DNA of 64,000 bases from Auraticoccus cholistanensis. GTDB lineage: Bacteria; Actinomycetota; Actinomycetes; Propionibacteriales; Propionibacteriaceae. The stretch spans positions 1-64,000 of the forward strand of contig NZ_WPCU01000008.1 of NCBI RefSeq assembly GCF_009742705.1, given 5' to 3'. Below, piece by piece: positions 11,348 to 19,350 of the stretch. The position numbers and the translations under genes are program-made. Each line of letters starts with the position of its first letter. Position 1 is the first letter of the stretch. The notes beneath the pieces were generated by a model. It ran no database searches. It saw only the letters and a list, made by a program, of their open reading frames with translations, and was not told where the DNA came from.

Positions 11348-11908
11348 TCAGCCCGGCACGCCCCGGCCGCTGCCGGCTCCCCGGCGGCGGTGCCGCAGCA
11401 GCCAGCGGGTGCCGCCGACCACGACGGTGCCGGCGGCGGTGAGCAGGGCGCTGAGGGCCACGGCGTCGGCGGAGGACCGCTGCCCCTCCCGGGCCGGTGG
11501 CGGCTCCTCGTGCGGTGCGGGGTCCGCAGCGGCGTGCGTCGACCCGTGACCGACGGTGAAGGAGAAGACCCCCGAGACCGGGTGCCCGTCGGACCCCGTC
11601 GTCTGCCACCGCACCTCGTACTCGCCGTCCGGCAGGGCGTCGCCGAGCTCGACGACCAGCGTCCTGCCGTCCAGCCGCGGCTCCCCGCTGACGCGGTCAC
11701 GTCCGTCGGCGCCCACGACCGCCGCCCCACCGCCGAGCAGGGGGTCGGAGAAGGAGAGCACCACCTCCCGGGGCGGGTCGGGCACCGACTGGCCCGCCGC
11801 CGGGGCGCTGCCCACCAGCGAGCCGTGGGCCAGTGCCCCGGGCGCCGCCGCGAGGGCGGCGACGAGGGCGAGCAGGAGCACCAGCACGAGCTGCCGCACT
11901 GCGGGCAC
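11348..11908 (-). CDS. copC: CopC-domain copper-binding protein
   Basis: 186 aa with an N-terminal signal peptide ending LAAAPGALA, so that mature protein begins with H (the AHGSLVGSAPA motif), as in CopC/YobA proteins where the N-terminal His binds Cu(II). The cupredoxin-like beta barrel includes the DGHPVSGVFSFTVG segment with a second conserved His. A C-terminal transmembrane helix (ALSALLTAAGTVVVGGTRWLL) and RHRRR tail anchor it outside the membrane. GTG start at 11908 has GAGGAGG 5 nt upstream. Its upstream region carries three in-phase copies of the cluster palindrome. A copper role is inferred from family and neighbours. Confidence 0.85.
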   Translation of the reverse strand: MPAVRQLVLVLLLALVAALAAAPGALAHGSLVGSAPAAGQSVPDPPREVVLSFSDPLLGGGAAVVGADGRDRVSGEPRLDGRTLVVELGDALPDGEYEVRWQTTGSDGHPVSGVFSFTVGHGSTHAAADPAPHEEPPPAREGQRSSADAVALSALLTAAGTVVVGGTRWLLRHRRRGAGSGRGVPG

Positions 11909-11940: not shown

Positions 11941-12030
11941 ATGCTGGTGGCGGGCCCCGGTGTCCCGGCAGCGTCCGGGGTCGGCACCGGCGGTCGTGCT
12001 GCGACGTAGCGGCAGTCGCCCGGGGGCGAC
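11941..12030 (-). promoter_or_regulatory. copC promoter with triple palindrome array
   Basis: Read on the minus strand: GTCGCCCCCGGGCGAC (12030-12015, perfect palindrome), TACGTCGCAGCACGAC (12008-11993, right half conserved), GCCGACCCCGGACGCT (11985-11970, imperfect), then 23 nt and CAGCAT (11946-11941) as -10. Starts are 22 and 23 bp apart. The same architecture precedes five other genes in this cluster. The two proximal copies are weak matches and would not stand alone as evidence. Confidence 0.5.
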
Positions 12031-12088
12031 CGGTGGGGCTGGGGTCCCCCGGTCCCCGTCGCGGGTGCTCCCGGCCGGGTTCCGCGGC

Positions 12089-12946
12089 TCAGCCGCGCTC
12101 GCCGAAGGTGTGGGCGAACGTGCGCCGGGCGTTCTCGAGGTAGACGCCGCGCCCGGCGGGGTCCTGCAGGCCGTAGGCCACGTCCTCCAGCCAGCGGCAC
12201 CGGGCGTGGAAGCGGACGCGACCCGCCTCGTCCTCCGTCAGCGGCTGGCCGAGCGCCTCGGCCACCCGGTGGGCGGTGGCTCCGCCGAGGTCGCGGTAGA
12301 GGGAGCCGAGGTCGCGGGCGGGGTCGGTGCGGGCCGCGTCGCTCCAGTCGATGACCCCGGTGAGGTGCCCACGCGCGTCCACCAGCAGGTGCTCGGCCCC
12401 GAGGTCGTTGTGCTGCGGGACCCTGCCGACCCGCGGCGGAGGCGGCTCGCGGTCCAGGAAGGCGGCCACCAGCGAGGCCTCGCCGGCCCCGAGGTGGGAA
12501 CGGACCCGGCCGAACGCCTCGACCGCGTCCCGGTGCCACTCCTGTGCGGCGTAGTCGTCGGTGGGCAGCTCCAGCCCGGCCCCCACGCTGCGCAGCGCGC
12601 CGAGCACCTCGACCAGACCGCGGACGAGCGACGGGGAGCTCCGGTCCTGCCGGCTGATCAGCGGCGTCCCCGGGACCCGCCGGTAGACGAGCAGGCCGAG
12701 CTCGGGGCGGTGCACCAGCGGGGCCGGGACGGCGACGGCGGTGCGGCTCCCGAGGGCCCGCAGCAGCGCGACCTCGCGGGCGACCGCATCCCGGTCGGCG
12801 CCGAGGCGCACGATGCAGTCCCCGACCGCGAACGTCGTGTTCTCCGACCCGCGCGCCAGGACGACCGGCTCGGCCCCGGCCGGCCAGAGCCGGTGCTCGT
12901 CGGTCAGGGCGGCCAGCAGCGACCTCTCCTGCTGCTCCAGCTGCAC
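12089..12946 (-). CDS. APH-family phosphotransferase
   Basis: 285 aa. Kinase signatures are HNDLGAEHLLVD (catalytic loop) and DWSDAARTDPARDLGSL (metal-binding Asp), with an N-terminal nucleotide-binding region containing RGSENTTFAVGD. GTG start at 12946 is fixed by AGGAGGG just upstream, which overlaps the region of the dyp stop codon; the two genes are 16 nt apart and likely translationally linked. Why a small-molecule kinase follows a peroxidase is unclear. It is unrelated at motif level to the kinase at 8.1-9.0 kb beyond the shared fold. Confidence 0.8.
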   Translation of the reverse strand: MQLEQQERSLLAALTDEHRLWPAGAEPVVLARGSENTTFAVGDCIVRLGADRDAVAREVALLRALGSRTAVAVPAPLVHRPELGLLVYRRVPGTPLISRQDRSSPSLVRGLVEVLGALRSVGAGLELPTDDYAAQEWHRDAVEAFGRVRSHLGAGEASLVAAFLDREPPPPRVGRVPQHNDLGAEHLLVDARGHLTGVIDWSDAARTDPARDLGSLYRDLGGATAHRVAEALGQPLTEDEAGRVRFHARCRWLEDVAYGLQDPAGRGVYLENARRTFAHTFGERG

Positions 12947-12962: not shown

Positions 12963-14300
12963 TCAGCCCAGGGTCGGGGTCCTGAGCAGCGTCTCACCCA
13001 GGTAGCCCTCCGGCGAGCACCCGGGGAGGACCGCGAAGATCGCGCTGCCGGTGTGGGTGACGAACCGGTTCAGCCGGTCCGCGGCGGCGCTGCGGCGCTG
13101 CGCGGCCACGAACTGGGCGTCCGGGTCGTTGCCGTAGGCGCAGAACAGCAGGCCGACGTCGAGCGCGCCGTGACCGCCGTGGGTGTGCTCGGGGGTCCCG
13201 GGCGCGTGCTCGTGCTCCTGGGTCGCGGCCGTGGGGTCGGGTTCCCCGCCGGCGGTGGCGATCAGCTGCCCGTAGTCGTAGCTGTAGCTGCGACGGAGCA
13301 TCGAGAACCCGCGGACCCGTCGCACGTGGGCGTCGGCGGCGATCACCGGACGGCCGCCAGCCGTCGCCTCGAGGTCGGGCTCGTCGTGCTCCTCACGACC
13401 GGTCAGCGGGGCGCCGTCGGAGCGCCGCCGGCCGATCACCGCGTCCTGCTCGTCGCGGGGGGTCAGGTCCCAGTCGGCGGTCCTCATCCGGATCTTGCGG
13501 AAGACGAGGTAGGTCCCGCCGGCGAACCAGGCGGGTTCGTCGTCCCGCGCCCACACCGTCTGCTCCAGCTCGGCGCTGCCCGGACGCGGGTTCGACGTGC
13601 CGTCCTTGTGGCCGAACATGTTGCGCGGCGTCCCGCCGTCCACCGGCGTGCTCAGGAACCCCGACTGCGTCCACCGCAGCCGGGCGTAGCCGGGGATGCG
13701 TGCCCGCAGCGACCGCATCGCCGCGCTCACCACCTGGGGGTCGTCCGCGCAGATCTGCAGCAGCAGGTCGCCGCCGGCCCAGCGCGGGTCGAGGGCGTCC
13801 CCCTCGAACTCGGGCAGCGGACGCAGCCGCCGGGGCGGCGGCTCCCCGACGCCGGGGAGGTCGAACACCGCCGGCCCGACGCCCACCGTGACGGTCAGCC
13901 GCGACGGCGGCAGACCGGTGGCGAAGTCGGTGGGGACCACGGCCCCGTCGCGGAAGAGCGGGGACGGCGGCGGGTCCTCGCCCCGGGTGATCCGGGCGAT
14001 CGTGGCGGTGAGGTCCCGCAGCAGCCGTCGCAGCGCGCCGGCGTCCCCGACCGTCAGGTCGGCCGCCACCAGCATCGCGTAGCGCTGCTGCGGGGTGTCG
14101 ACGCCCGCCTGGTGCGCCCCGAAGACCGGCACCACCTCCTCGGGCGGCGACGGCGGCGACGGGCGTGCGCCCAGCCCGCCGCCGGCCAGGCCGATGGCCG
14201 CCGCGCCACCCACGGTGGCGATCGCCGAGCCCAGCAGCACCCGCCGGGTGCTCGTCGGGCTGCGGGGGGTCGGGTCGGCGGGGGTCTCGTGCTGGCTCAT
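12963..14300 (-). CDS. Tat-exported Dyp-type peroxidase (EfeB-like)
   Basis: 445-aa haem peroxidase of the DyP/EfeB (deferrochelatase) family. The N-terminus STRRVLLGSAIATVGGAAAIGLAGG is a twin-arginine signal. The family hallmark GXXDG is FGHKDGTSNP (residues about 218-227), whose Asp acts in peroxide cleavage; the proximal haem ligand is probably the His in ADAHVRRVRGFSMLRRSYSY. A His-rich stretch (EHEHAPGTPEHTHGGHG) near residue 350 is an insertion that could bind metal. No efeU or efeO neighbours are visible, so an iron-uptake EfeUOB system is not supported here. ATG 14300 has GGAAGGA upstream. Its promoter carries two copies of the cluster palindrome. Confidence 0.88.
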   Translation of the reverse strand: MSQHETPADPTPRSPTSTRRVLLGSAIATVGGAAAIGLAGGGLGARPSPPSPPEEVVPVFGAHQAGVDTPQQRYAMLVAADLTVGDAGALRRLLRDLTATIARITRGEDPPPSPLFRDGAVVPTDFATGLPPSRLTVTVGVGPAVFDLPGVGEPPPRRLRPLPEFEGDALDPRWAGGDLLLQICADDPQVVSAAMRSLRARIPGYARLRWTQSGFLSTPVDGGTPRNMFGHKDGTSNPRPGSAELEQTVWARDDEPAWFAGGTYLVFRKIRMRTADWDLTPRDEQDAVIGRRRSDGAPLTGREEHDEPDLEATAGGRPVIAADAHVRRVRGFSMLRRSYSYDYGQLIATAGGEPDPTAATQEHEHAPGTPEHTHGGHGALDVGLLFCAYGNDPDAQFVAAQRRSAAADRLNRFVTHTGSAIFAVLPGCSPEGYLGETLLRTPTLG

Positions 14301-14336: not shown

Positions 14337-14403
14337 ACGCTAGGTCGGCCACGGGGACCGCCGGCGCCGTCGGAGATCGACACCGTGGTCATCGCGGGGC
14401 GAC
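14337..14403 (-). promoter_or_regulatory. dyp promoter with two palindrome copies
   Basis: Minus strand: GTCGCCCCGCGATGAC (14403-14388), then GTCGATCTCCGACGGC (14381-14366), start-to-start 22 bp; 23 nt further is TAGCGT (14342-14337) as -10. Transcription would start near 14330, leaving a leader of about 30 nt with a GGAAGGA ribosome binding site. Confidence 0.55.
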
Positions 14404-14436: not shown

Positions 14437-14480
14437 GTCGTCCCCAGGCGACGGCCTGGCGTCGCTCGGCTGCCTAGCAT
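14437..14480 (+). promoter_or_regulatory. Sensor-kinase promoter with palindrome
   Basis: GTCGTCCCCAGGCGAC (14437-14452) ends 22 nt before TAGCAT (14475-14480), which is 6 nt before the ATG at 14487. The palindrome would cover about -50 to -35, where class II activators and NarL-type regulators bind. Confidence 0.6.
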
Positions 14481-14486
14481 GAGCCC

Positions 14487-15656
14487 ATGGGGCGAGCGGC
14501 GGCCGTGCGCGGCGGGGTCGGTCCCCGGGCCGCGCCGTGGCTGCTCGACGTGCTGCTCGCCGTCGGGGTGGCGCTCACCGTGAGCTGGCTCGTCGCCGCG
14601 GGCGTCGGCGGCTCCGGGGCCGACCCCTGGGCCTACACCTGGGCGGTCGCGCTGGGCGCCCTCATGCTGGTCCGCCGCCGCTACCCGGGCGTCGTCGTCG
14701 TGCTGAGCGGCGCGGCGGTCATCGCCTACCACGCCGCCGACCACCCGCCGATCGGGGTCGCCGTGCCGCTGGCGGCGGCGGTGTTCTCCGCCGCCGAGCA
14801 CGGGCGGGCCCTGGTCGCCGTGGTCACCTCGGCCGCCGTCGTCCTGCTCGGCCTGGGCTACCGGCTCGCGGTGGGGCAGGACCCGGGCTTCGTCATCGGC
14901 TACGAGCTGCCCGGTCAGGCGCTGCTGCTGGCCGGCGCGGCGGCCTTCGGCGACAGCGTGCGCTCCCGTCGCGAGGTGCGGCGCAAGTCCGAGGAAGTCG
15001 CCGCGCTGACCGCCGACCGGTACGCCCGTGAGGCCGAGCAGCGGATCATGGCCGAACGGCTCGACATCGCCCGGGAGCTGCACGACTCGATCGGGCACGC
15101 GCTGACCGTCATCACCCTGCACAGCGAGGTGCTGGAGGAGGCGATGACCTCCGAGGACCCCGAGGTGCGCAGGTCGCTGCGCGCCATCACCGACACCACC
15201 TCGGCCACCTTCGCCGACCTGCGCCGGACGGTGCTCGGCCTGCGGGACGGCGCCCGGACGTCCCGGCACCCGCCCGACCTCGGACAGCTCGGGTCGGCCA
15301 CCCTGCCCGCGCGGCAGGCGGGGGTGGAGGTGAGCACGCACCTGGACCTCCGGTCCGCGGTGCCGGCCCCGGTGGAGGCGGCCATCTACCGCATCGTGCA
15401 GGAGTCGATCACCAACGTGGTCCGCCACGCCCGCGCGACGCGGGTCGAGGTCAGGGTCGAGGAGTCCGACGGCTCGGTGGCGGTGAGCGTCGCCGACGAC
15501 GGCCGTGGCGGCCGGCAGCCCTCACCCGCAGGCGCGGCCGAGCCCGGCACCGGGATCGTCGGCATGCGCGAGAGGGCCCAGCTCCTCGGCGGCGACCTCT
15601 CCGCCGGGCCGTCGGCCCACGGGTTCGAGGTGCGGGCCACCATCCCGCTGCGGTGA
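14487..15656 (+). CDS. NarL-family sensor histidine kinase
   Basis: 389 aa. The first 160 residues hold about five hydrophobic segments without a large extracellular domain, so the signal may be sensed in or near the membrane. The HisKA_3 dimerisation domain carries the phospho-acceptor in ERLDIARELHDSIGHALT (His about 199). The HATPase domain follows with the N box QESITNVVRHA and the G boxes VADDGRG and GTGIVGMRER. ATG at 14487 is leaderless by promoter position. The response regulator gene is not adjacent but lies one gene downstream, after the multicopper oxidase. Confidence 0.9.
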   Translation: MGRAAAVRGGVGPRAAPWLLDVLLAVGVALTVSWLVAAGVGGSGADPWAYTWAVALGALMLVRRRYPGVVVVLSGAAVIAYHAADHPPIGVAVPLAAAVFSAAEHGRALVAVVTSAAVVLLGLGYRLAVGQDPGFVIGYELPGQALLLAGAAAFGDSVRSRREVRRKSEEVAALTADRYAREAEQRIMAERLDIARELHDSIGHALTVITLHSEVLEEAMTSEDPEVRRSLRAITDTTSATFADLRRTVLGLRDGARTSRHPPDLGQLGSATLPARQAGVEVSTHLDLRSAVPAPVEAAIYRIVQESITNVVRHARATRVEVRVEESDGSVAVSVADDGRGGRQPSPAGAAEPGTGIVGMRERAQLLGGDLSAGPSAHGFEVRATIPLR

Positions 15657-15700: not shown

Positions 15701-15767
15701 GTCGCCCGGGAGCGACCCGGCAGTCGTCCGCCGGCAGATCCGCGGCCCGGCACCGCGTCCCTAGCGT
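15701..15767 (+). promoter_or_regulatory. Multicopper oxidase promoter with two palindrome copies
   Basis: GTCGCCCGGGAGCGAC (15701-15716, near-perfect) and GTCGTCCGCCGGCAGA (15723-15738, left half conserved) are 22 bp apart. The second ends 23 nt before TAGCGT (15762-15767), itself 7 nt before the ATG at 15775. Confidence 0.6.
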
Positions 15768-15774
15768 CGCGGCC

Positions 15775-17361
15775 ATGGACCAGACCCGCACCACCGCCGG
15801 CCCCCGCACGTCGCCCGCCGCCGCCGGACCCGCCCACCGCACGCCCGCCCGTCCCGGCCGGACGGGGCGACGGGTGCTCGCCGTGGTGACCGCGGCCGCC
15901 CTGGTCGCCGCCGCGCTGAGCGGCTGCAGCGGCGCGCAGGAGGCGCCCGTCGTCGACACCGTCGGGCAGGTCGACTTCGACAACCGGCTGGCCGTCCCGC
16001 CGCTGGACCGCGGCACCCTGGCCCCCGACGGCGTCCGCGAGTTCGACCTCGTCGCGGACGAGGGGACCACAGAGTTCCGGCCGGGGATCAGCACCCGGAC
16101 CTGGGGCTTCGACGGCAGCTACCTGGGTCCCACCCTCGCGGCGACGGTCGGGGACCGGGTGCGGGTGCGGGTCGACAACCAGCTCGCCACCGCGACCACG
16201 GTGCACTGGCACGGCATGCACCTGCCGGCGGAGATGGACGGCGGACCGCACCAGATGATTGAGCCGGGTCGGACGTGGACCCCCTCCTGGCGCGTCGACC
16301 AGGAGCCCACGACGCTCTGGTACCACCCGCACCCCCACGGCGAGACCGAGGAGCACGTGGAGATGGGGCTGGCCGGGATGTTCCTGCTCGAACCCGCCGA
16401 GCCGGACCGCTCCGGGCTCCCGCACGAGTACGGCGTGGACGACGTCCCCGTCGTGGTGCAGGACAAGAACTTCGGCCCCGACGGAGCCATCTCGCTCGAC
16501 ACCCGCGGCTTCGTCGGCTCGCTGGGCGACCAGGTGCTGGTGAACGGCACCCACTCGCCCTACCTGGACGTGACGACCGAGCGCGTGCGGCTCCGGCTGC
16601 TGAACGGGTCCTCGGCCCGCACCTACCGCTTCACCTTCGACGACCGGCGCACCTTCGACCTCGTCGGCACCGACGGCGGGCTGCTCGAGGCCCCGCACCC
16701 CACGGCGCAGGTCCAGCTCTCACCGGGGGAGCGGGCCGAGATCGTGGTGCGGCTGCAGCCCGGTGAGCGGCCCGTGCTGCGCTCGGAGGCGCCGGACCTC
16801 GGCATGCCGGCCGTGCTGGCGGAGATGAACGGCGGCGCGGACCGGCTCGACGTGCTGCAGCTGCGGGCCGCCGACCGTCTCGCCCCGAGCCCGCGGCCCG
16901 CGCGCCAGCTCGCCGACATCCCGCGGATCGACCCCGGCTCGGCGAGCCAGCGGCGACGCTTCGACATGGACGGCCTGCAGATCAACGGCCGGTCGATGCA
17001 GATGCACACCGTGGACGAGGTCGTCGAGGTCGACACCGTCGAGATCTGGGAGGTGCGCAACCAGATGCAGTTCGCGCACTCCTTCCACGTCCACGACGTG
17101 CAGTTCCAGGTCCTGGACGTCGACGGGCAGGCGCCCCCGCCGGAGCTGGCCGGGTGGAAGGACACCATCTACACCCGCCCCGGGGTGCTGTACCGGATCA
17201 TCATGCGCTTCGAGGACTACACCGACCCCGACACCCCGTACATGTACCACTGCCACTTCCTCGCCCACGAGGACGCCGGGATGATGGGGCAGTTCATCGT
17301 GGTCGAGGACGCCTCCAGCGCCCCCGACCGGCTGCCGGAGAGCGAGCACGGTGGTCACTGA
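15775..17361 (+). CDS. Multicopper oxidase lipoprotein
   Basis: 528 aa, three-cupredoxin multicopper oxidase. The N-terminus ends in a lipobox (ALSGCSG), predicting an exported, lipid-anchored protein. All copper ligand motifs are present: HWHGMH (about 143-148), HPHPHG (184-189), HSFHVHD (about 435) and HCHFLAHEDAGMM (about 491-503) with the type-1 Cys and Met ligand. Such enzymes oxidise Cu(I), metals, bilirubin or phenols; the substrate is not shown. The start ATG 15775 is leaderless by promoter position, and gives a proper signal peptide. It lies between the sensor kinase and response regulator genes, and its promoter shares their palindrome, so it is probably a direct target. Confidence 0.9.
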   Translation: MDQTRTTAGPRTSPAAAGPAHRTPARPGRTGRRVLAVVTAAALVAAALSGCSGAQEAPVVDTVGQVDFDNRLAVPPLDRGTLAPDGVREFDLVADEGTTEFRPGISTRTWGFDGSYLGPTLAATVGDRVRVRVDNQLATATTVHWHGMHLPAEMDGGPHQMIEPGRTWTPSWRVDQEPTTLWYHPHPHGETEEHVEMGLAGMFLLEPAEPDRSGLPHEYGVDDVPVVVQDKNFGPDGAISLDTRGFVGSLGDQVLVNGTHSPYLDVTTERVRLRLLNGSSARTYRFTFDDRRTFDLVGTDGGLLEAPHPTAQVQLSPGERAEIVVRLQPGERPVLRSEAPDLGMPAVLAEMNGGADRLDVLQLRAADRLAPSPRPARQLADIPRIDPGSASQRRRFDMDGLQINGRSMQMHTVDEVVEVDTVEIWEVRNQMQFAHSFHVHDVQFQVLDVDGQAPPPELAGWKDTIYTRPGVLYRIIMRFEDYTDPDTPYMYHCHFLAHEDAGMMGQFIVVEDASSAPDRLPESEHGGH

Positions 17362-17382: not shown

Positions 17383-17426
17383 GTCGCCCTCGGACGACCC
17401 CGCGGCCGGCGGAGCAGACCTAGCAT
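17383..17426 (+). promoter_or_regulatory. Response-regulator promoter with palindrome
   Basis: GTCGCCCTCGGACGAC (17383-17398) ends 22 nt before TAGCAT (17421-17426), which is 7 nt before GTG 17434. The arrangement suggests autoregulation. Confidence 0.6.
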
Positions 17427-17433
17427 GGCGACC

Positions 17434-18102
17434 GTGACCGGGCCGGTGCCGTGCTCCGTCGTCCTCGTGGACGACCAGGACCTGGTGCGTGCCGGTCTGC
17501 GGGCCCTGCTGACCCGCGACGAGTCGATCCGCGTCGTCGCCGAGGCCACCGACGGGCGGCGCGGCGTGGACACCGTCCGCCGGTACCGCCCGGACGTGGT
17601 GCTGATGGACCTGCGGATGCCGGTGATGGACGGGATCGAGGCGACCCGGGCCATCCGCGCCGACGAGCAGCTGGTCCGCACCTCCGTCGTCGTCCTCACG
17701 ACGTTCGACGACGACGCCGACGTCGTCGAGGCGATCCGGGCCGGGGCGGACGGCTACCTGCTCAAGAACACCCCCCGGGCCGACCTGCGCGACGCGGTGG
17801 CCCGGGCCGCCCGCGGCGAGCGGCTGCTCTCGCCGTCCATCACCGCACGGCTGATGGACATGGTCGCGGTGGGCCCGGCCGCTCCCACCCCCGACCCGCG
17901 GCTGGCCCGCCTCAGCACCCGGGAGGTCGAGGTCCTGGCCCGCATCGGGCACGGCGACACCAACGACGAGATCGCCGCCGTGCTGCACCTCAGCCCGGCG
18001 ACCGCACGCACCTATGTCAGCCGCATCCTCGCCAAGCTGGGCGCCCGCGACCGCCCCGAGCTGGTGGTGATCGCGCACCGGTCCGGGCTCGTCGTCCCCT
18101 GA
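17434..18102 (+). CDS. NarL/FixJ-family response regulator
   Basis: 222 aa. Receiver domain with acidic pocket VLVDDQDLV, phospho-acceptor Asp about 59 in VVLMDLRMPVMDG, and conserved Thr and Lys in LTTFDDDA and YLLKNTPR. The C-terminal LuxR-type helix-turn-helix reads LSTREVEVLARIGHGDTNDEIA followed by SPATARTYVSRILAKLGARDR. GTG 17434 is preferred over the ATG at 17425 because that ATG lies inside the -10 hexamer TAGCAT. It likely pairs with the kinase at 14.5 kb and is the best candidate to bind the 16-bp palindrome found at its own and neighbouring promoters. Confidence 0.9.
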   Translation: MTGPVPCSVVLVDDQDLVRAGLRALLTRDESIRVVAEATDGRRGVDTVRRYRPDVVLMDLRMPVMDGIEATRAIRADEQLVRTSVVVLTTFDDDADVVEAIRAGADGYLLKNTPRADLRDAVARAARGERLLSPSITARLMDMVAVGPAAPTPDPRLARLSTREVEVLARIGHGDTNDEIAAVLHLSPATARTYVSRILAKLGARDRPELVVIAHRSGLVVP

Positions 18103-18717: not shown

Positions 18718-18827
18718 GGGGGCTGCTCCTGGGCCGGGAACGGGTGGGCCGGCATCGTCGGACGGGGACCTCCGCCGCGGCCGCCCGCCGCCGGCGACTG
18801 CGGGAGTCGACCTCGGACCGGTCGCGG

Positions 18828-18893
18828 GTCGAGTGGGGGCGACCCTGCTGTCGCCTCCGGAGGACGTGCGCCCCGGCCGTGGCCGCCTACGGT
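18828..18893 (+). promoter_or_regulatory. Membrane-protein promoter with two palindrome copies
   Basis: GTCGAGTGGGGGCGAC (18828-18843) and GTCGCCTCCGGAGGAC (18850-18865) are 22 bp apart. The second ends 22 nt before TACGGT (18888-18893), which is 7 nt before GTG 18901. Confidence 0.55.
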
Positions 18894-18900
18894 GTCCGCC

Positions 18901-19350
18901 GTGCACCCGACGCCCCCTGCCGCCGGCCCGCGCGAGGCGCTGGGTCTGCCACCCGCCGCGCTGGTCGGGCTGGCGGCCGTCGGCCTCCCCGGGGCGGTGC
19001 TGCGCCAGCTCCACCTCGTCGGCGACGACGGCCCCGTGCCGCTGCTGCTCGCGGTCGGGCCGGTCGTGCTGTGGATCGCCGTCGCCGTGGTGAGGCGGGT
19101 GCCCAACCCCTTCCTGGCCGTGCTGGTGACGGGGACGCTGCTGGGGGTGATGACGGTGGTCAGCCACCAGCTGCTGTGGGAGGCCTCCTTCCGGGGGACG
19201 CCGCCCGCGATCGGCGTCGGCCCGGCGGCGACCGTGCTGCCCCGGGTGGGGGCGGTCCTCGGCGGGCTGTCCGCGGGTGCGGTGACCGGTGCGGTCGGCG
19301 GGCTGGTGGCCTGGGGGCTGCAGCGGCTCAGCTCCGTGGGCAGGCGGTGA
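18901..19350 (+). CDS. Small membrane protein, function unknown
   Basis: 149 aa with about four hydrophobic segments (AALVGLAAVGLPGAVL, LLLAVGPVVLWIAVAVV, FLAVLVTGTLLGVMTVV, VLGGLSAGAVTGAVGGLVAWGL). No known family is recognised. GTG 18901 is chosen because TACGGT sits 7 nt upstream and because the frame upstream is uncharacteristic. It is the last member of the palindrome-bearing cluster, so it may serve the same stress response; that is inference. Confidence 0.6.
   Translation: MHPTPPAAGPREALGLPPAALVGLAAVGLPGAVLRQLHLVGDDGPVPLLLAVGPVVLWIAVAVVRRVPNPFLAVLVTGTLLGVMTVVSHQLLWEASFRGTPPAIGVGPAATVLPRVGAVLGGLSAGAVTGAVGGLVAWGLQRLSSVGRR

Follow-up and report, generated by a model that had tools for sequence, protein, structure and literature searches.

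Tandem inverted-repeat boxes upstream of copC in Auraticoccus cholistanensis as candidate sites of a local two-component regulator

Which protein might read the repeated 16-mers in front of the copC gene of Auraticoccus cholistanensis, and do all copies count? The gene lies in a contiguous stretch of 64,000 nucleotides, which was analysed as a whole and is called the window in the following. According to Pfam and the sequence, copC (minus strand, 11348..11908) encodes a CopC domain (PF04234) and starts with GTG after GAGGAGG; a spacer of 181 bp, which harbours the array, separates it from a phosphotransferase gene (12089-12946). The latter belongs to the APH family and is located between dyp and copC. 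The initial annotation had placed three minus-strand 16-mers in the spacer, and re-reading the sequence confirmed their starts at 12030, 12008 and 11985, the distances of 22 and 23 bp, and the 23 nt between the third copy and the hexamer CAGCAT (minus strand, 11946-11941), which is presumably a weak -10 element. The distal box GTCGCCCCCGGGCGAC (12015..12030) agrees with the consensus given below at 14/14 positions; the middle box TACGTCGCAGCACGAC (11993..12008; 10/14, window top 0.16%) and the proximal box GCCGACCCCGGACGCT (11970..11985; 10/14, window top 0.42%) are degenerate. The distal copy had been described as a perfect palindrome: this is true of its arms, two inverted 7-base elements 2 bp apart that pair fully, as in 7-2-7 sites of the NarL type, but not of the central CC, which is unpaired (7/8 half-pairs). 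That the two other copies are imperfect is evident from their 3/8 and 4/8 half-pairs. Both TANNNT and TTGAC are absent from the spacer; an inspection of the same DNA for a sigma-70 promoter gave nothing convincing.

Judged alone, the three 16-mers are inconspicuous. When the 181-bp spacer was shuffled 500 times with its dinucleotides preserved, the same total mutual similarity was reached in 281 cases; among 353 window pieces, 146 attained an equal value. As shuffles and window pieces match it this often, the copC observation would not stand by itself. A comparison with other copC genes added little: close orthologues were not found, the relatives being about 30-46% identical, and when 22 further copC-like genes were compared over 200 nt of upstream DNA, the best matches to the 16-mers were within the range of random window pieces. 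A DNA search with the spacer in 147 genomes of the family gave, outside the own genome, only matches of 24-57 bases with E-values of at least 5.8e-5; these are read as GC-rich chance matches.

Six promoters between 11.9 and 18.9 kb, those of copC, dyp, a histidine kinase, a multicopper oxidase, a response regulator and a small membrane protein, have one box in common, the 7-2-7 inverted repeat GTCGYCC-NN-GGRCGAC. Additional boxes follow at a spacing of 22-23 bp in four of them, and at 6/6 promoters the last box is located 22 or 23 nt before a hexamer, which is TAGCRT or TACGGT, and CAGCAT at copC. On the minus strand, the gene of the Dyp-type peroxidase (dyp, 12963..14300; Pfam and NCBIfam, with a twin-arginine-like N-terminus by eye) is preceded by a distal box GTCGCCCCGCGATGAC (14388..14403, 12/14) and, 22 bp on, by a proximal box GTCGATCTCCGACGGC (14366..14381, 10/14), which has a distance of 23 nt to TAGCGT (14342-14337). 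The remaining four genes are located on the plus strand. The histidine kinase gene (14487..15656; HisKA_3 and HATPase according to Pfam) has the box GTCGTCCCCAGGCGAC (14437..14452, 13/14), with 22 nt to TAGCAT (14475-14480) and an ATG at 14487. The multicopper oxidase gene (15775..17361; Pfam, NCBIfam) has a distal box GTCGCCCGGGAGCGAC (15701..15716, 13/14) and, 22 bp on, a proximal box GTCGTCCGCCGGCAGA (15723..15738, 10/14), followed after 23 nt by TAGCGT (15762-15767) and by an ATG at 15775. The box GTCGCCCTCGGACGAC of the regulator gene (17383..17398, 14/14) is followed after 22 nt by TAGCAT (17421-17426), with a GTG at 17434. Finally, three boxes, GTCGACCTCGGACCGG, GTCGAGTGGGGGCGAC and GTCGCCTCCGGAGGAC (starting at 18806, 18828 and 18850, thus 22 bp apart and spanning 18806..18865; 10, 11 and 12 of 14), precede the gene of the membrane protein (18901..19350), 22 nt separating the last one from TACGGT (18888-18893), and the gene starts with GTG at 18901; a weak further match (plus strand, 10/14) lies ahead of this array at 18783. 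For this small protein hydropathy predicts four membrane segments, and searches of Pfam and NCBIfam gave no family match. A small membrane protein of this kind recurs behind the same boxes in other genomes.

The arrangement of strong and weak boxes is similar at copC, dyp and the oxidase gene, where the distal box is the stronger one; at 18.8 kb the order is reversed and the proximal box is the best. The kinase and the regulator promoters have one strong box each. From the hexamer to the start codon there are 6-7 nt at the kinase, oxidase, regulator and membrane-protein genes, the transcripts of which are predicted to be leaderless; the leaders of dyp and copC are longer. If the start codons of these four genes are the transcript starts, their proximal boxes centre 42.5-44.5 bp upstream. 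In the regulator gene, the first ATG (17425) falls partly within the presumed -10 hexamer; the spacing seen at these leaderless genes suggests that translation more probably begins at GTG 17434.

How often such arrangements arise by chance was determined with the consensus GTCGYCCNNGGRCGAC, which was written after the strongest window boxes had been seen, and with a threshold of at least 10/14, which 371 places in the window pass. Triples with 22/23-bp spacing numbered four and belonged to three promoters (copC, dyp and 18.8 kb), against about 0.05 expected for the window. Scanning all spacing classes from 10 to 60, the class 21/22 gave three triples, of which two belong to the dyp and 18.8-kb arrays already counted and one is shifted at dyp; the classes 25/26 and 26/27 shared one triple, and the remaining classes had none in the window. 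Among 30 shuffles of the whole window, two contained one triple and none contained more. A matrix was also trained on 44 boxes, all from other genomes, which had been found with the window-derived consensus; it is symmetric by construction, and single sites score 9 to 14 of 14. With this matrix, the distal copC box is rank 1 of 63,985 window positions, and ranks 1-4 are occupied by the distal copC, the distal oxidase, the regulator and the kinase boxes. Boxes with a score of at least 6 that precede TANNNT were seen at gaps of 22 and 23 only (gaps 14 to 32), namely at the five promoters other than copC. In the genome, the distal box occurs with at most one mismatch at 14 places, three of which are inside 5.4 kb of the window, each intergenic. 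For a wider pattern of near-perfect boxes, 4 of 30 genome places are within 5.4 kb, whereas chance would give about 0.0003 groups of this kind. Across the genome as a whole, the box occurs less often than its reversed control does (14 vs 25; wider pattern 30 vs 66). Judged with their neighbourhood, the copC boxes are real by the measure of the window statistics.

The same arrangement was sought in relatives. In an order sample of 391 genomes, 45 had a homologue of the regulator at E<=1e-58; two of these homologues were 79% and 77% identical, the others among the matches listed 51-61%. In a class sample of 394 genomes, a close orthologue was present at E<=1e-78 in the present genome only, the 79% and 77% orthologues being evidently outside this sample or unscored there. 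From the places found, 29 regulator loci were fetched, and 29/29 contain a homologue of the kinase. Five loci, where the kinase start was out of reach, were dropped from the module count. In 14 of the other 24, a module of box and hexamer is located upstream of the kinase gene; this corresponds to 1.66 modules per kb, compared to 0.051 (8 modules in 158 kb) in the other locus DNA, which may itself contain true modules. The gap is 22 in 11 loci and 23 in three; apart from a single case of 27, no further gap between 14 and 32 was seen. At the threshold used, 10/24 kinase loci are without a module, and the 14 with one are not independent, as they stem from four families, 10 from one, with several of one genus. 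For the spacing between boxes, 28 promoters were picked by hand, the divergent arrays of the loci L104 and L071 being counted twice, once per strand; modules that were weak or could not be placed (e.g. L081, L100, L102) were excluded, as were the ones that follow the regulator gene in L082, L085, L086 and L090. Of the 27 promoters besides copC, 12 have a second box (at least 10/14) at 22 bp and six have one at 23 bp; the remaining offsets between 14 and 33 are without any.

In L104, the locus of the 79% orthologue, modules are located before the kinase gene, a phosphotransferase gene (product 36% identical to that of 12089-12946), a GNAT acetyltransferase gene, an MMPL-family transporter gene that is followed by a dyp gene (76% identical to the window dyp), and the gene of a small membrane protein that weakly resembles 18901-19350 (39% over 84 aa, E 3e-4). 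The phosphotransferase gene of L104 has its own box array and is divergent from the MMPL transporter and dyp genes. In the locus of the 77% orthologue (L105), modules are found before the genes of an FAD-binding oxidoreductase, of a membrane protein 50% identical to 18901-19350, and of the kinase, whose box is identical to the distal copC box. Tandem boxes also occur at an oxidase relative in L070 and, in L066 and L071, at a gene of a small membrane protein (29% identical to 18901-19350 over 102 aa, E 3e-4) that precedes an oxidase gene. One box pair in L066 (3430-3546; the same DNA is present in L071) has a spacing of 23 bp and hexamers 23 nt away on both sides; it seemingly serves two divergent genes.

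The presumed binder of the boxes is the response regulator encoded at 17434..18102 (plus strand; Response_reg PF00072 and GerE PF00196), which combines a receiver domain with a LuxR-type (GerE) helix-turn-helix, as is typical of the NarL/FixJ family. It contains in order the conserved stretches DDQ, LMDLRMP, LTTF and LLKN, which we take to be the phospho-acceptor stretch and the partner residues T and K; VraR, ChrA, NarL and DevR are among the solved chains that are closest to it. As its gene is inside the cluster and behind its own box, this regulator would be the natural binder, and two papers describe 7-2-7 sites as the targets of NarL-family regulators (PMC9314961, PMC2718512). We infer that the local regulator binds the boxes cooperatively and activates; the transcript starts are likewise deduced from sequence. 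In the mechanism that we propose, the kinase (14487-15656) would phosphorylate the NarL-family regulator, which is encoded 5.5 kb from the copC array and would bind the 7-2-7 boxes as dimers. The near-perfect distal copC box would anchor the first dimer; the two degenerate boxes, about two helical turns apart and on the same face of the DNA, would be filled through contact with the anchored dimer. The dimer on the proximal box, its centre about 43-44 bp upstream of the point where the transcript is predicted to start, would contact RNA polymerase and switch copC on, the promoter having no -35 element that can be recognised. As a sigma-70-like site is lacking at copC, activation is more probable than repression. 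Several observations stand against this explanation: the three copC sites alone do not exceed chance, the box is outnumbered by its reversed control in the genome, the scanned loci of relatives gave no module beside copC, 10/24 kinase loci are without one and 10 of the 14 others come from a single family, copC has CAGCAT where the five other promoters have TANNNT, and the order of strong and weak boxes is reversed at 18.8 kb. All in all, we regard it as probable that the copC array represents sites of the two-component regulator. Of the in-phase operator array that had been proposed at copC, one strong distal and two degenerate sites stand, but boxes of an activator fit better than targets of a copper repressor.

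The family of the regulator, the type of site and the cooperative tandem arrangement are already known, and a literature search of limited depth gave no recognised account of the box or of a copper-linked NarL system. The box sequence of DevR/DosR from Mycobacterium tuberculosis and the heptamer of E. coli NarL both differ from the box here. DevR/DosR responds to hypoxia and related stresses; the targets here, unlike those of DevR/DosR, are copC, the multicopper oxidase, the Dyp peroxidase and the small membrane protein. Similar in both cases is the architecture: DevR/DosR promoters have closely packed strong and weak sites with the proximal one at -35, DevR, which is of the NarL family, binds a high- and a low-affinity site cooperatively, and it regulates itself, which resembles the position of the present regulator behind its own box (PMC3029386). 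At copC strong and weak sites are likewise adjacent, the proximal one being at the -35 position by spacing only. Two things make graded, cooperative filling of the copC boxes plausible, the recurrence of the grammar and the reported cooperative binding of DevR to high- and low-affinity sites; the response of copC may then be switch-like, as the initial annotation had suggested. The NarL promoters of E. coli (ogt, nirB and others) have 7-2-7 inverted repeats as well, and at ogt1052 a site centred at -44.5 suffices for activation (PMC9314961), to which the 42.5-44.5 bp of the proximal boxes at the four presumed leaderless genes come close; unlike there, the boxes here repeat every 22-23 bp and have a fixed distance to the hexamer. 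In the sco-ecuc-dtpA operon of Streptomyces lividans, a Dyp-type peroxidase gene is likewise combined with a putative copper transport gene (PMC4736821), but these genes form one operon, whereas here dyp and copC have box arrays of their own, with the phosphotransferase gene between them. The redox-linked two-component system HbpS-SenS-SenR of Streptomyces has sites that include an imperfect inverted repeat, and their consensus CGGGCCGCGTCCCG is unlike the present box (PMC4991794).

That each of the three copC boxes matters is favoured by a small margin of belief only. It is unlikely, though deserving of attention, that only the distal box is functional and the weaker 16-mers are GC-rich chance matches, copC being activated from one upstream dimer or by read-through from dyp and the phosphotransferase gene. 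Boxes 2 and 3 match at just 10/14 positions, which 371 places in the window equal, the kinase and regulator promoters, if functional, make do with one strong box, and dyp, the phosphotransferase gene and copC are on the same strand. However, the offsets of both weak boxes are those that the grammar prescribes, and 23 nt separate the third from the hexamer; two partner boxes as good as these exist at only 20 of 127,870 positions. Moreover, with the box at 12030 as the sole site, the distance to the hexamer would be 68 nt, for which the promoters analysed give no example.

Rather improbable is a different binder, either one of two regulator paralogues of the own genome, which are 60% (contig C17) and 57% (contig C9) identical, or another transcription factor, the local kinase-regulator pair itself being a target. 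On C17 (L055:1501-1599), a perfect box and a second one 23 bp on are located before the gene of a 44%-identical paralogue of the membrane protein; the perfect box is about 10 kb from the gene of the 60%-identical regulator. The second box is 45 nt from TACCGT, so that the proximal box position is regarded as empty or degenerate; a module search of this array was negative. What argues for the local regulator is that in other genomes the module tracks kinase genes adjoining homologues of this regulator, whereas the box-module scan saw none at the C17 kinase.

Very improbable are repressor operators, possibly copper-responsive and of the CsoR or BlaI/CopY type, although the genome has CsoR and BlaI-type genes and copC is often linked to copper. 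The CsoR operators of Streptomyces lividans are, like the boxes here, short GC-rich palindromes at copper genes. Their TAC/GTA dyads around G-tracts, as described in PMC3902906, are not evident in the copC boxes, and the copC spacer mismatches the Streptomyces consensus of that source at 6/14 positions. A short CsoR core fits at 12053 with 2/10 mismatches, yet there are at least 10 such matches in the window. Dyads of this kind do occur at the site of a copZ-like gene, and the boxes stop upstream of the hexamer and do not cover it. The scan of the copC spacer covered CsoR-type sites; for the BlaI type, two BlaI promoters were inspected. The copZ-like gene (heavy-metal-associated domain), on contig C5 of the own genome, has just before it a large inverted repeat TACCGGTAGGGGGTA ... 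TACCCCCTACCGGTA (L054:2774-2820), which is located some 3.6 kb upstream of the single CsoR-family gene in this genome; this repeat is likely a CsoR operator. The weakest alternative, that the distal palindrome is a hairpin in RNA or a terminator behind the phosphotransferase gene, is hardly credible: the distal copy can form an 8-pair hairpin, but the folding of the spacer is ordinary (z -0.29; hairpin z -1.54), a terminator-like site is absent, Rfam gave no match at gathering score and one at chance level nearby, and the same box recurs upstream of promoters.

Least well fared the copper signal assumed in the initial annotation. The CsoR-like site at the copZ-like gene looks different from the boxes, none of 26 copC loci of relatives that were scanned has a module beside copC (one lies about 0.9 kb upstream, in L005), and the boxes of relatives also precede genes without an obvious copper role. 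The gene content here is suggestive of copper; the targets in relatives are mixed, a transporter and a phosphotransferase being among them. As the signal, one may guess at copper, redox or envelope stress.

Taken together, and held with somewhat more doubt than conviction, the data would fit an actinobacterial two-component family with one rigid promoter code: boxes every 22-23 bp, the last of them 22-23 nt before the -10 element, often in front of leaderless genes, the number and strength of boxes setting the order in which targets are induced. Within the same tentative reading, copC, the multicopper oxidase and the Dyp peroxidase would have been recruited by gaining boxes and would constitute a regulon for envelope redox or copper stress. 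As the regulator, the kinase, the sites and the six promoters are contained in one stretch of 8 kb, the signal, the order of binding and the effect of box number are directly testable. The spacing grammar also allows the targets of an uncharacterised regulator family to be predicted in other genomes. In four related loci a second tandem module lies directly downstream of the regulator gene (L085:2182, L086:2188, L090:2185, L082:1454).
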